Part shown: positions 23,076 through 31,275 of the stretch, piece after piece | Layout of the letters: every line of letters starts with the position of its first letter | How positions within the stretch are numbered: the first letter of the stretch is position 1 | Assembly (NCBI GenBank): GCA_944327365.1 | Contig: CALVHI010000010.1 | Location: forward strand, 1 to 34,477 | Direction of reading: 5' to 3' | DNA from: an uncultured Bacilli bacterium | GTDB lineage: Bacteria; Bacillota_I; Bacilli_A; RF39; UBA660 | DNA: 34,477 bases | Notes under the pieces: model-generated | Seen by the model: only the letters and a program-made list of their open reading frames with translations | Told to the model about the DNA's origin: nothing | Databases searched by the model: none | Program-made: the position numbers and the translations under genes

Positions 23076-23918
23076 ATGGAGATACAAAAGTATCAAGAAA
23101 AAATATTTGAAGATATTAAACATATTAATGAATTTAAAGAGGAATATTGGGAAGCAAGAGAGCTTATGAAAGTGCTAGGATATTCTAAATGGAGTAACTT
23201 TAAAAAGGTTATTGATAAAGCTAAAGTTAGTTGCAAATTGAGTAATGGTAATATTCAAGAACACTTTGCTGACGTCGGGAAGGTGTTAATTGTAGGTAAT
23301 GATGCTAAGATGGAAGTTGAAGATTATCATTTAACGCGTTATGCTTGTTATTTAATTGTCCAAAATGGAGATTCTAGGAAAGAAGTAATTGCTCTTGGGC
23401 AAAGTTATTTTGCTGTCCAAACAAGGAAAATGGAACTTACCGAGGAAGAATTTTCTAGTTTAGATGAAAACCAAAAACGATTATATACAAGAATGAATGT
23501 CAGAAATAAAAATTTGTATTTATTCCTTACGGCTAAAAATGCTGGTGTTAAAAATTATGGAAAGTTTAATAATTATGGCTATCAAGGTTTATATAATGGT
23601 GAGACAGCAAGAGATATTGCTAGAAGAAAAGGAATAAAAGAAACTGATGATATATTAGATTATATGGGGAGTGAAGAATTAGGTGCTAATTTATTTCGAA
23701 TTACGCAGACGGATGCTAAATTAAAAAGAGATAAAATTCATACAGAAAGTGATGCTTGTGATACACATTATGTCGTTGGTTCGGCAATACGCAAAACAAT
23801 TTACAATTTAGGTGGCACAATGCCTGAGGATTTACCTACACCAGATGCTTCTATAGGGGAATTAGAACAAGAAGAATTAAAGAAAATTCATGGTGGGTGT
23901 TATGTGTTATTAGTGTAA
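23076..23918 (+). CDS. dinD: DNA damage-inducible protein D
   Basis: 280 residues that match the DinD family along the whole length: WEARELMKVLGYSKWSNF, the LTRYACYLIVQNGD block, ALGQSYFAVQTRKMEL, the NYGYQGLYNG segment, LDYMGSEELGANLFRITQTDAKLKRD, and the GGTMPEDLPTP tail. In E. coli DinD is SOS-induced and affects RecA filaments on DNA. The N-terminal part resembles Bro-N/KilA-like folds. A LexA-like box before its promoter is consistent with SOS control. GTTGGTGGGG precedes the ATG. Single-gene unit with its own terminator. Confidence 0.92.
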   Translation: MEIQKYQEKIFEDIKHINEFKEEYWEARELMKVLGYSKWSNFKKVIDKAKVSCKLSNGNIQEHFADVGKVLIVGNDAKMEVEDYHLTRYACYLIVQNGDSRKEVIALGQSYFAVQTRKMELTEEEFSSLDENQKRLYTRMNVRNKNLYLFLTAKNAGVKNYGKFNNYGYQGLYNGETARDIARRKGIKETDDILDYMGSEELGANLFRITQTDAKLKRDKIHTESDACDTHYVVGSAIRKTIYNLGGTMPEDLPTPDASIGELEQEELKKIHGGCYVLLV

Positions 23919-27309: not shown

Positions 27310-27326
27310 ATTTAGGAGGAATGGTT

Positions 27327-28835
27327 GTGGATCAATTAGGTAGAGTATCTGCTGCTTTGGGGATTCGTTATTTAATTAAATATGCTAATAAACCTGATCA
27401 AGAGTGCTTGGATGTATTAAGGGATAGAGTTGATGAAATTAAATTATGGTGTTTAATTACTCTTTTTACGAATAATATGGATGCAGTATGGGAGAAAGTT
27501 CCTGATTTTATTTATGAAGAACTATTTTTGATGAAAAAGATAGAAACAACAAGAGGGGAAATTGTTTATGGCAGAGGATATCATAGTCGCTCTTCTTTAG
27601 GATTTAAAGAACAATTTAAATTAATTCGCGATAAATTAGCTCATCAAGATTTTATTTATCAAGATAAAATGATTTATATTGATGATCATTATGATACACG
27701 TTTTGATCTATTATGGTTAGAAGCACTGGTGTTATCGACAATATCTAATGGTAAAAATGATTTTGTAAAGGGAATGAATGATGTAGCAATATTTTCTATT
27801 ATTCCTCAGTCTATAGCCCGTTGTTATGACTTTAAAGATCTTTGGAATTTAGGCTTTATTCAGTTTTATCAAATTACACTTCTTAATGGTAATCAAAATA
27901 CTTGGGCTAACTACTTTAAAGATACTGGTATTAATTCTAAACGATATACATTTCTTTTGATTTTTAATTCTGTTAAATATAAGCTTAATCATTATCAAAA
28001 TCGTCTTGATTTATCTTTTGATGAAGCTATAGAAAGATTAAATCATATTTTTAGGGAAGTAGAGGATTATTTTGGGAAATTTATTCATTTAGAGCTAATT
28101 CATCCTTCAATAAATGAAGAATTATTTATTGATCAAGATTTTCAAGAAATGAGTTTTAGTGGTAAACTTCTGTATTTAATTAATAAAGTTAAGATGGGAG
28201 ATCCTATTTTTTACAATTCAATTATTGTTATAAATTTGTTGAAAATTTTAAATCAGTTGGATCATTTATCGAAGGATAATCTTTATATTTTAAGAGATGC
28301 TAAAAATTTTTTAGTGAAAGTTTATGCTAATATTTTATTTTGTGATTATCCTATTTTTGAAAAAGAAAGTAATTTGGTTTGGGAGTTACAAAAGAAATAT
28401 TCGTTTGATATACATTTTGTTCATGCTAAAAATGTTTATAAAGACTATATTAGAGTATTTAAAAGAAGTTATGAAGAAGCTGTAAAATATCAGGCTGCTA
28501 AAGGGTATTTATCTTATTTATTAGGTATGATGCGTTATTATAATCATTTATTAGAAGAAGCGATAGATGGATTAGATGATAAAAGATTATTTCTAAATAT
28601 TAGAAATGCTATTACCCATAATCAAATCGAATTTAGTCATGATCAAATTAAATTATATATAACAGGAAGAAATATTCATTTAAAACATTATAAAAAAGGG
28701 AGTTGGATTCCTAAAGAATTTAAAAATAATCGAATTATTTGGGAAATGATTATGAATTATGAAGAGTTTTTACAAATGTTAGATGAATTATTTAGTTTTA
28801 GACAAATTCCTACAACCCTTCATTTATCTAAGTAA
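27327..28835 (+). CDS. Unknown protein with two HEPN-like RxxxxH motifs
   Basis: 502 residues, mostly helical, soluble, with no signal or membrane segment. I chose the GTG at 27327: AGGAGG lies seven bases ahead, while the ATG at 27321 is only one base from it. Two segments carry the HEPN ribonuclease signature: KLIRDKLAHQDF (R101, H106) and FLNIRNAITHNQIEF (R426, H431); the second matches the frequent IRNAIAHN form. They lie about 325 residues apart. HEPN domains form the RNase sites of many toxins and defence proteins, usually as dimers. No known partner is nearby; trmB is 5'. Function is not established. Confidence 0.65.
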   Translation: MDQLGRVSAALGIRYLIKYANKPDQECLDVLRDRVDEIKLWCLITLFTNNMDAVWEKVPDFIYEELFLMKKIETTRGEIVYGRGYHSRSSLGFKEQFKLIRDKLAHQDFIYQDKMIYIDDHYDTRFDLLWLEALVLSTISNGKNDFVKGMNDVAIFSIIPQSIARCYDFKDLWNLGFIQFYQITLLNGNQNTWANYFKDTGINSKRYTFLLIFNSVKYKLNHYQNRLDLSFDEAIERLNHIFREVEDYFGKFIHLELIHPSINEELFIDQDFQEMSFSGKLLYLINKVKMGDPIFYNSIIVINLLKILNQLDHLSKDNLYILRDAKNFLVKVYANILFCDYPIFEKESNLVWELQKKYSFDIHFVHAKNVYKDYIRVFKRSYEEAVKYQAAKGYLSYLLGMMRYYNHLLEEAIDGLDDKRLFLNIRNAITHNQIEFSHDQIKLYITGRNIHLKHYKKGSWIPKEFKNNRIIWEMIMNYEEFLQMLDELFSFRQIPTTLHLSK

Positions 28836-28838
28836 ATT

Positions 28839-30443
28839 TTATTCATCTATTAAAACAGCATGAATGACTAATCTTTTGGTTCCGTTATTACTGCATGTCG
28901 ATAAAGTGATAATTTTATCATCAGCTTCTACAGGTACATTAAAATTATAAATGCTACGATTTTTAATCATAGTAATAAATTCTAGAAAATCCTCATCTGT
29001 ATCAAAGAATACCTTTAAATAGTCATTTGTATCGGGAATACGATAAATAGAAAATATTTTAAACTCCATGTTTTCATATAAAGTGTTATAAGTAATAATT
29101 TGATTTTCTGGGTTAGTATACCAGTTTTTATTTGCTACTTTATATAAAGTTCCGAACATGATCCCACTATAATACATGTTGTGTCCATATATGATATTAT
29201 TTTTATTTAAATTCATCGAATCATTACGAAAATCTAAGAATATCCATCCATTGGCATTATTTTCTTTGTTAATATTATGATCAAGATAATAATCATTATC
29301 TTTAGCTTGAACTACTGGATAGTCTATATTAGTATTATTTACTGTTAATTTTCCAACAACATCTTCATTTACAGTTAATAGTGATGCCAATTCTTTGTTT
29401 GTAATCATTTTGATCTCTTCTATTGGTGTTTCATTTTCTTTTGCTTCTTCTAGGTTTTCTTCATTTTTTTGTTCAATAATAGGGGCTGGATCTGTCAGTT
29501 CAATTACTTTGGCTAAGTCCTCTTCGATTGATGAGACTTGCTTAAAAGAAACATAGTTAGAAATGCCAATATAAGTTACAATTAAAATAACTAAACTTGA
29601 TACAATTAAACCGCAAACTTTTAAGGTGTTTGCTATAGCTTGCTTGAAAATGTTTTTATCTAAGTATTCTTTAGAATATTCTAAAGAAAGATAAATTTTA
29701 TACTTTTTTTTGTATTGTTTGTTTTTATTTTTTAAATATAAAGCAATCTTTTCGTCTGTTATATTTTCATGAATAATTATTTTTAAATTATGACGATTAT
29801 ATTTGGTGAGTAAATTTACTAAATTTTCTAATTCTTGATTGATAAGACGATTAATATGAATTACTTTTAAATATTTATTTATTTCTAAGAAATCTTTTAA
29901 ATCTTTTTGATCTTCTAAAGATAGAGGGAAGGTTATTCGTATGTTGGTCTTGTAATAAATGTTAGAATATCTTAAAAGATTATTTTTTTCCATGAAATTA
30001 CTTAAATAAAGGATTTCACAACGGGATGTACATTTAATATTAAATTTATCTAGACGTTCGATCATAAAGGGTTGAAGATTATAACAAATTAAAGTATTTA
30101 TATGTCCATTGCGGATTAATTCTTCACAAATTTGGTATGTTAGTGTCTCTTCTTCTTTTATTTCTAGGCTAGTAATTAAAGTAGCTTTATATAAAAGAGG
30201 TAAAATAGTAGAAGCTAAATCTATTTTAGTGATTATGGATTTTGTGATATGATATTGGACTGATAGTTCTTTAATGAATGATGATAAAATTTTAGAATTT
30301 TCTTTTATATAAATATCACTAAAAATTAATTCATTGTTGCTAATAATGTTAGTATTAATTAAATCACTACTAATTTTGCTGTTCTTTGTTTTATAAGAAA
30401 AAATAATTTGATTATTTTCGATGCTTATTAATATTTTTTTCAC
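28839..30443 (-). CDS. Class B-like sortase with large cytoplasmic N-terminal extension
   Basis: 534 residues from the GTG at 30443 (GGTGA ahead; an in-frame upstream GTG exists). Residues 1-275 are polar, Leu/Ile/Asn-rich, probably cytoplasmic and of no recognised family. A membrane helix follows at about 276-296, then a linker and the sortase domain (about 355-534). Catalytic residues are His421 (IIYGHNMYY), Cys517 (TLSTCS) and Arg524 (TKRLVIHA). TLSTC is the class B form. Sortases attach secreted proteins to peptidoglycan. The divergent neighbour at 30565 carries an SPETG sorting signal and is the likely substrate. Most sortases have no such N-terminal domain. Confidence 0.87.
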   Translation of the reverse strand: MKKILISIENNQIIFSYKTKNSKISSDLINTNIISNNELIFSDIYIKENSKILSSFIKELSVQYHITKSIITKIDLASTILPLLYKATLITSLEIKEEETLTYQICEELIRNGHINTLICYNLQPFMIERLDKFNIKCTSRCEILYLSNFMEKNNLLRYSNIYYKTNIRITFPLSLEDQKDLKDFLEINKYLKVIHINRLINQELENLVNLLTKYNRHNLKIIIHENITDEKIALYLKNKNKQYKKKYKIYLSLEYSKEYLDKNIFKQAIANTLKVCGLIVSSLVILIVTYIGISNYVSFKQVSSIEEDLAKVIELTDPAPIIEQKNEENLEEAKENETPIEEIKMITNKELASLLTVNEDVVGKLTVNNTNIDYPVVQAKDNDYYLDHNINKENNANGWIFLDFRNDSMNLNKNNIIYGHNMYYSGIMFGTLYKVANKNWYTNPENQIITYNTLYENMEFKIFSIYRIPDTNDYLKVFFDTDEDFLEFITMIKNRSIYNFNVPVEADDKIITLSTCSNNGTKRLVIHAVLIDE

Positions 30444-30524
30444 ACTATTCACCATTAATATCATAACACAAATTGACACTTTTTTAAATATTTTTAAAAA
30501 ATAACTGTATTTTTTACATTTTTG

Positions 30525-30533
30525 TGATATAAT
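30525..30533 (+). promoter_or_regulatory. Extended -10 promoter of sorted protein gene
   Basis: TTTGTGATATAATTA contains TG-N-TATAAT, about 30 bases before the start codon; the third occurrence of this motif in the window. Confidence 0.6.
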
Positions 30534-30564
30534 TAAGGCATAATAGTAAGGGAGAGATTAAAGA

Positions 30565-31275
30565 ATGAAAAAAGTTATTTTGCTATTTGGTGTTGTTGCT
30601 AGTGTTTTTGTTTTGATGCCAAGTTCTGTTTATGCAGCGGAACCTGCCGGATTTGTGGAGACTAGTGATGGTGTATATGTTAATGAGCAAGCGATTAGTG
30701 CAGGTAGATATGGTACTTTTGAAGCTGGTGATGTCAGCTGGACTTATGAAAGTGCTGAAGATGAAGCTGATGGAGTTAAGACTTGGAATTATTACTTGAC
30801 CGTTGGAAGTGTAGATTTTGAATTCTTATATATGAGTTTAGTTCCTACTGGTGTTGATATTGATGCTGTAACACCTGGTGATTCCTTTTTAATGGTTCAT
30901 CCATCTAATGATAATGGAATTACTACTGTTTTATTACAAGCAACAGGAAGTTTAAATGAAGGGGATAGAGTATTATTATTTACAGTTAGAACTGTTGATC
31001 AAGATGGAGCAGAGGAATGTTTATTAGAGACAGCACCACTTAATTTAGATTGTAGTGTTAATGTTCCTGGATTCTATTTTGATAATGACGGTAATGAGAT
31101 TAGCGCTGAGGAATATGCTCAAGTGTGTGGTAATGTAACACCTGATGATGGTAATGATGTTCCTAGTCCTGAGACAGGTAGCGTTATTCCATATATTGCT
31201 ATCGGTGGGGGAATAGTTGCTCTTATAGCTGTATATTTATTGACAAGAAAATCAAGTAAAGTTTATAAGATTTAG
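30565..31275 (+). CDS. Secreted protein with C-terminal sorting signal
   Basis: 236 residues: a signal peptide (MKKVILLFGVVASVFV, cleavage after about VYA at residue 24), a mature acidic domain of about 175 residues, then the sorting region SPETG (201-205), a membrane helix (about 208-226) and the tail RKSSKVYKI. SPETG is a variant of LPxTG. Three Cys (152, 163, 188). No domain family recognised in the mature part, which looks beta-rich. Divergent from the sortase gene, so probably its substrate. GGGAGAG precedes the ATG; a hairpin terminator overlaps the stop. Confidence 0.85.
   Translation: MKKVILLFGVVASVFVLMPSSVYAAEPAGFVETSDGVYVNEQAISAGRYGTFEAGDVSWTYESAEDEADGVKTWNYYLTVGSVDFEFLYMSLVPTGVDIDAVTPGDSFLMVHPSNDNGITTVLLQATGSLNEGDRVLLFTVRTVDQDGAEECLLETAPLNLDCSVNVPGFYFDNDGNEISAEEYAQVCGNVTPDDGNDVPSPETGSVIPYIAIGGGIVALIAVYLLTRKSSKVYKI

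Follow-up and report, generated by a model that had tools for sequence, protein, structure and literature searches.

A class B sortase fused to a conserved N-terminal domain, with a proposed role of that domain in recognition of the C-terminal tails of its substrates

The DNA analysed here (the window, 34,477 nt from an uncultured Bacilli bacterium) carries an open reading frame in which a class B sortase domain is joined, through a single membrane helix, to a large conserved N-terminal domain (termed the N-domain). A divergently transcribed neighbor encodes a surface protein with a sorting signal, and the C-terminal end of that protein follows a pattern that is shared by the proteins found beside the same fusion in other genomes. 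We propose, with a probability of a little over one half, that the fusion protein is a class B sortase dedicated to certain substrates, which it would recognize at two points: the N-domain would capture the substrate by its tail inside the cell and the sortase domain would cut the xPxTG motif outside.

The fusion open reading frame is at positions 28839–30479 on the minus strand (546 codons counted from the first GTG). The sortase domain, putatively extracellular, is at aa positions 339–544 (28848–29465, minus strand). The NCBIfam profile TIGR03064 (class B sortase) matches aa positions 339–538 with 168.3 bits (cut-off 153.75), Pfam Sortase also matches the C-terminal region, and the closest PDB match of the domain is the SrtB of B. 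anthracis (E-value = 3.8e-39). In NCBIfam, all families matched at E-values up to 1 are of class B, the class E catalytic profile not being among them. The His-Cys-Arg triad aligns with that of solved SrtB structures and is invariant in the alignment of homologues: His433 (YGHNM, 29181–29183), Cys529 (TLSTC, 28893–28895) and Arg536 (TKRLV, 28872–28874), all on the minus strand.

Amino acid positions 291–312 (29544–29609, minus strand) are the sole strong hydrophobic span of the protein and are the predicted transmembrane helix. The N-domain precedes it (aa positions 13–290; 29610–30443, minus strand). The side before the helix is rich in K/R and the sortase domain comes after it; thus by the positive-inside rule the N-domain would be cytoplasmic. 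In class B sortases the N-terminal signal-anchor is usually short and a large cytoplasmic part is absent, a trait that is not strictly defining; here a conserved domain of 278 residues takes this place.

The homologues start at Val13 or Met13 (KK-[I/V]-x-I) and the listed GTG lacks an obvious ribosome site, which suggests that the true start is probably downstream, near Val13 (~30443). No clear ribosome-binding site can be seen at positions 30440–30480 (minus strand), where the candidate starts overlap with a TATGAT box. These two features make a leaderless sortase transcript possible.

Full-length homologues with 68%–83% identity were found in 14 independent MAG records (GTDB), in one of which the contig end cuts the gene short. 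When 193 genomes of the organism's family were searched, more than 60 yielded homologues of about 31%–70% identity. Nearly all of these fusion frames are open, 515–590 aa in length, and spread over many genera. A frame shift, a joining of two genes or an assembly artefact is ruled out by the 14 independent loci and by the recurrence of this frame in dozens of genera. The short class B sortases of the family are other paralogues, at other loci. An earlier reading made from the sequence only had named an error of this kind, or a short sortase at this locus in relatives, as grounds for doubt; neither applies here.

The N-domain profile alone detects the domain in 66 of the 193 family genomes and in 100 of 241 genomes of an order-wide draw. 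No credible match was found outside the family among 395 genomes of the class; one candidate (G464, E-value = 4e-4) is a secreted protein and was rejected as a chance match. Considering the genome distribution and the constant frame lengths, the fusion is old, stable and bound to one lineage. Two open reading frames of 294 and 316 aa, at G267:C31 (L185) and G298:C11, encode an N-domain followed by a hydrophobic end and are without a sortase. Both are second copies, a full fusion being present elsewhere in the same genome, and an adaptor or decoy role is possible. As to the cell wall of these organisms, peptidoglycan is reported to be kept in most RF39 species, and srtA/B are reported to be missing only in sister orders (PMC10868615).

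The N-domain was analyzed for relatives and predicted structure. None were found in Pfam, NCBIfam or the PDB sequences, by single sequence or by profile, and a literature search found no paper describing either the N-domain or the substrate tail. It appears to be a new domain family, which about one in three of the genomes sampled from this large, uncultured lineage of gut bacteria possesses. An AlphaFold2 model based on a 15-row alignment is of middling confidence (pLDDT 75, pTM 0.50) and displays an N-terminal hairpin followed by about nine strand-helix units of 20–30 residues. A second, full-length model of low confidence (pLDDT 63), which served to confirm the secondary structure and the continuous helix alone, repeats the secondary structure of the N-domain, and its last helix (positions 258–316) is continuous with the membrane span. 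The best Foldseek matches in two libraries are leucine-rich repeat (LRR) proteins, i.e. SKP2 (E-value = 8.8e-4) and NLRPs, and giant-virus LRR proteins; these matches are weak (TM-scores 0.2–0.3, VIA-align Z at most 6.3). Matches to TIM-barrel, Rossmann-like and PRPP-synthetase folds were tied with them in VIA-align and are not believed. The Pfam LRR signature is absent in all 30 members tested, and a profile search gave only a chance-level match to VLR (E-value = 2.3). The predicted fold may be described as a beta-alpha solenoid that is LRR-like by weak match, and it is not called an LRR here.

Three stretches of the N-domain look alike (residues 38–49, 143–154 and 252–264, with Val13 as residue 1), each with a strand followed by S-x-x-[YF]-aliphatic-x-x-N. 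Self-alignment gives an E-value of 0.03, only a hint of a threefold internal repeat.

The divergent partner is at positions 30565–31275 on the plus strand, with GGGAG preceding its ATG. It is a 236-aa protein in which a signal peptide (residues ~1–25), an xPxTG motif, a hydrophobic span and a basic tail can be read by eye. The motif is SPETG (residues 201–205; 31165–31179, plus strand), and the tail, putatively cytosolic and the proposed ligand of the N-domain, is RKSSKVYKI (31246–31272, plus strand). The partner scores below the cut-off of the LPXTG_anchor profile TIGR01167 (15.9 bits), with 11.2 bits in the protein scan and 15.2 bits in the genome scan.

A surface protein with the TG motif, transmembrane segment and tail is found within 260 bp of the fusion at 57 of the 80 fusion loci that have at least 1.2 kb upstream: 52 divergent, 4 upstream and co-directional, and 1 downstream. 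The remaining 23 loci have no adjacent partner. The sorting motif is NPxTG in most relatives, SPETG here. The ectodomains of the adjacent partners differ and their C-terminal end is common to them. The gene lysS follows the partner in the window and in several genera; apart from this and the substrate, no conserved neighbors of the fusion loci were noticed. The complete triad, the large N-terminal region of no known family, and the divergent SPETG neighbor with its signal peptide, all put forward in the sequence-only reading, are borne out. Its proposal of a dedicated sortase-substrate system is supported too: many genera keep the divergent partner, and the signal recurs in unlinked substrates.

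Two other loci of the window may be mentioned. Positions 27321–28835 (plus strand) encode a 504-aa protein that is convergent with the sortase and unrelated to it. It has no Pfam or PADLOC family match and displays two R-x4-H motifs (RDKLAH at 103 and RNAITH at 428) reminiscent of HEPN ribonucleases. It is absent from the 116 other family genomes searched, which suggests that the gene is probably strain-specific. Positions 23076–23918 (plus strand) encode a protein with a BRO family N-terminal domain, a type of domain that is often phage-borne.

The substrate tails, both adjacent and unlinked and including those of the window's own genome, show a basic-hydrophobic-aromatic-K/R-I pattern, e.g. 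SKVYKI, TKLYRI, KFPQA and LFKKI. The consensus is a basic patch followed by [F/L/V/M/I]-[Y/F/S/P]-(K)-[K/R/Q]-[I/V/A]-COOH. Among 59 distinct adjacent tails, picked without reference to the tail motif, K stands at position −5 in 53, Y at −3 in 31 (F in 6), K or R at −2 in 40, and I, V, A or L at −1 in 55. The pattern is also found away from the fusion locus. A second, unlinked candidate in the window's own genome (L146) ends in AKKNTKIYKI, and in other genomes unlinked DUF11-repeat giants and a VWA-CnaB adhesin end in RKFYRI, KKIFKI, VFYKI and RLYKI. In fusion clades without an adjacent partner, unlinked NPxTG/SPxTG proteins end in FKQI, FKKI, FTKI or FRKI. One genome (G057) is an exception, its unlinked candidates being without the KYI ending of its adjacent partner.

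The relationship of the tail with the fusion was examined with a neutral query, the LPXTG profile TIGR01167, run on 36 genomes with the N-domain and 35 without it, plus the window's own. Among retrieved proteins with readable ends, the tail is found in about 10–11 of 24 from fusion genomes and in 0 of 16 from non-fusion genomes (Fisher p about 0.001). Matches to a tail profile occur in 29 of 66 genomes with the N-domain and in 2 of 127 without it, a count that is biased by the use of close relatives of the window in building the profile. A further protein set from non-fusion genomes, some of it chosen by a tail-bearing profile, gave one clear case (KFYNV in G183), one near-match (VFRKI in G140) and a doubtful pattern match (KKNSI). 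Together with G160 (KFFRV), G183 and G140 are exceptions in that such tails are present and no N-domain was found; the G183 genome is 64% complete.

In general, xPxTG-type proteins of non-fusion genomes and substrates of other sortases are almost always without the tail. The tail-less proteins of fusion genomes are mostly of VPxTG or NPxTGD types, and since these types are found in non-fusion genomes too, they are probably handled by other sortases. A second pair of this kind is present in the genome of the window itself, where a 196-aa sortase (L268, contig C45) lies beside a VPKTG (LPXTG-type) protein with the generic tail NYDKKR. A second class B paralogue group of the family (L166–L182) mostly has YGHGR or YGHSR instead of YGHN-MYYS. 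Its N-terminal regions of 100–270 aa are lysine-rich or unrelated and are without the N-domain; two members (L175 and L176) may have other cytoplasmic domains.

The tail class tracks the N-domain clade. Mapped on a tree built from 100 N-domains, the four tail classes require 5 changes, versus 19.5 in shuffles. Such covariation alone could also be expected from plain vertical descent. More telling are paralogues within one genome: G119 has three fusion paralogues, each beside a different tail (NKVYKI, KKLHKI and NKFNKV), and G178 has two (beside NKFENI and NKFPQV).

It is established for sortases that the sorting signal retains the precursor in the membrane, leaving its last residues on the cytosolic side, and every sorting signal ends in a positively charged tail (PMC12445088). 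In the proposed mechanism, the precursor would sit in the membrane with its C-terminal tail exposed to the cytosol, the N-domain, an LRR-like module rigidly joined to the membrane helix, would capture this tail, and the extracellular sortase domain would cut the xPxTG motif of the captured protein and anchor it. The product of the divergent gene would be the main substrate, along with a few unlinked adhesin-like proteins with the same tail. Capture by the N-domain is proposed because a conserved cytosolic end would need a cytosolic reader if it is read at all, and the N-domain is the one cytosolic part that is conserved together with the tail. Tentatively, the N-domain may be a new family of intracellular repeat domain that reads a paralogue-specific C-terminal peptide code while the outside domain reads xPxTG, the inside address preventing cross-talk among sortases. 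Sorting signals end in a charged tail that is commonly regarded as a passive stop in the membrane. In the present system the tail resembles an address that the enzyme itself would read, and this would explain how the sortases of one cell keep their clients separate.

Other explanations bear on the same data. The N-domain may be a sensor of a metabolite, nucleotide or protein that gates sortase activity, the tail being unrelated to it, and a large conserved globular domain with a helix continuous with the membrane span is a layout compatible with signalling. We consider this unlikely, as the N-domain matches no known ligand-binding or signalling family in Pfam, NCBIfam or the PDB sequences, and a sensor would leave unexplained the conserved cytosolic tail that is present on the substrates of this sortase alone and follows the N-domain clade. 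The suggestion in the sequence-only reading that the activity responds to a cytoplasmic signal is thus not favored; the data rather make the cytosolic tail of the substrate itself the likely ligand.

LRR-like folds commonly mediate protein-protein interactions, and the weak LRR-fold matches of the N-domain would suit a scaffold that places the sortase near envelope machinery (the Sec translocon, lipid II synthesis or the septum) and recruits substrates only indirectly. The cytoplasmic extension of SrtE1 has likewise been proposed to bind other proteins (PMC5148588). A scaffold is quite unlikely, however, as it leaves the association of tail and N-domain unexplained, and no conserved neighbor besides the substrate was noticed, except lysS in several genera. 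Least probable is a tail that serves merely for membrane retention or stop-transfer, or is read by another cytosolic factor while the N-domain does something else: the charged tail common to all sorting signals (PMC12445088) and the three genomes with such tails and no detectable N-domain agree with it, but charge alone would then suffice, and yet the tails here keep a −5 lysine, a −3 aromatic and a −1 aliphatic C-terminus, which the control proteins and the VPxTG proteins of fusion genomes do not.

Two-point recognition, the reading preferred here, can be compared with known systems. The class B SrtB of Staphylococcus, Bacillus anthracis and Clostridioides difficile (TIGR03064) is alike in its catalytic domain, which scores above the cut-off, in its full triad, and in the NPxTG-type motif of most relatives. 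The fusion differs in having a 278-aa cytoplasmic domain in place of a short anchor, in the conserved C-terminal tail of its substrates, and in that no heme-uptake genes are among its named neighbors in the window. The fusion had initially been described as quite unlike known class B anchors; this stands as regards class B, but a cytoplasmic extension is not unique among sortases. The class E SrtE1 of Streptomyces coelicolor also has one before the membrane helix, and its deletion abolishes function in vivo (PMC5148588). SrtE1 is of another class, and its extension is shorter (~100–200 aa in homologues) and poorly conserved, with charged patches; in the sections consulted, no link of the extension to a substrate tail is described (PMC5148588). 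The SrtB-AbpA pair of oral streptococci (PMC4974636) is similar in that a class B sortase gene lies next to that of its dedicated substrate, a protein whose C-terminal signal is unusual. The signal of AbpA, however, is a short KAGKALPKTSAVK one that lacks the classical hydrophobic domain and charged tail (PMC4974636), whereas the partner here has a classical signal (signal peptide, xPxTG, transmembrane segment and cytosolic tail) and its sortase carries an additional domain. The SrtE1 extension (PMC5148588) and the SrtB-AbpA pair (PMC4974636) are the nearest precedents for the proposal.
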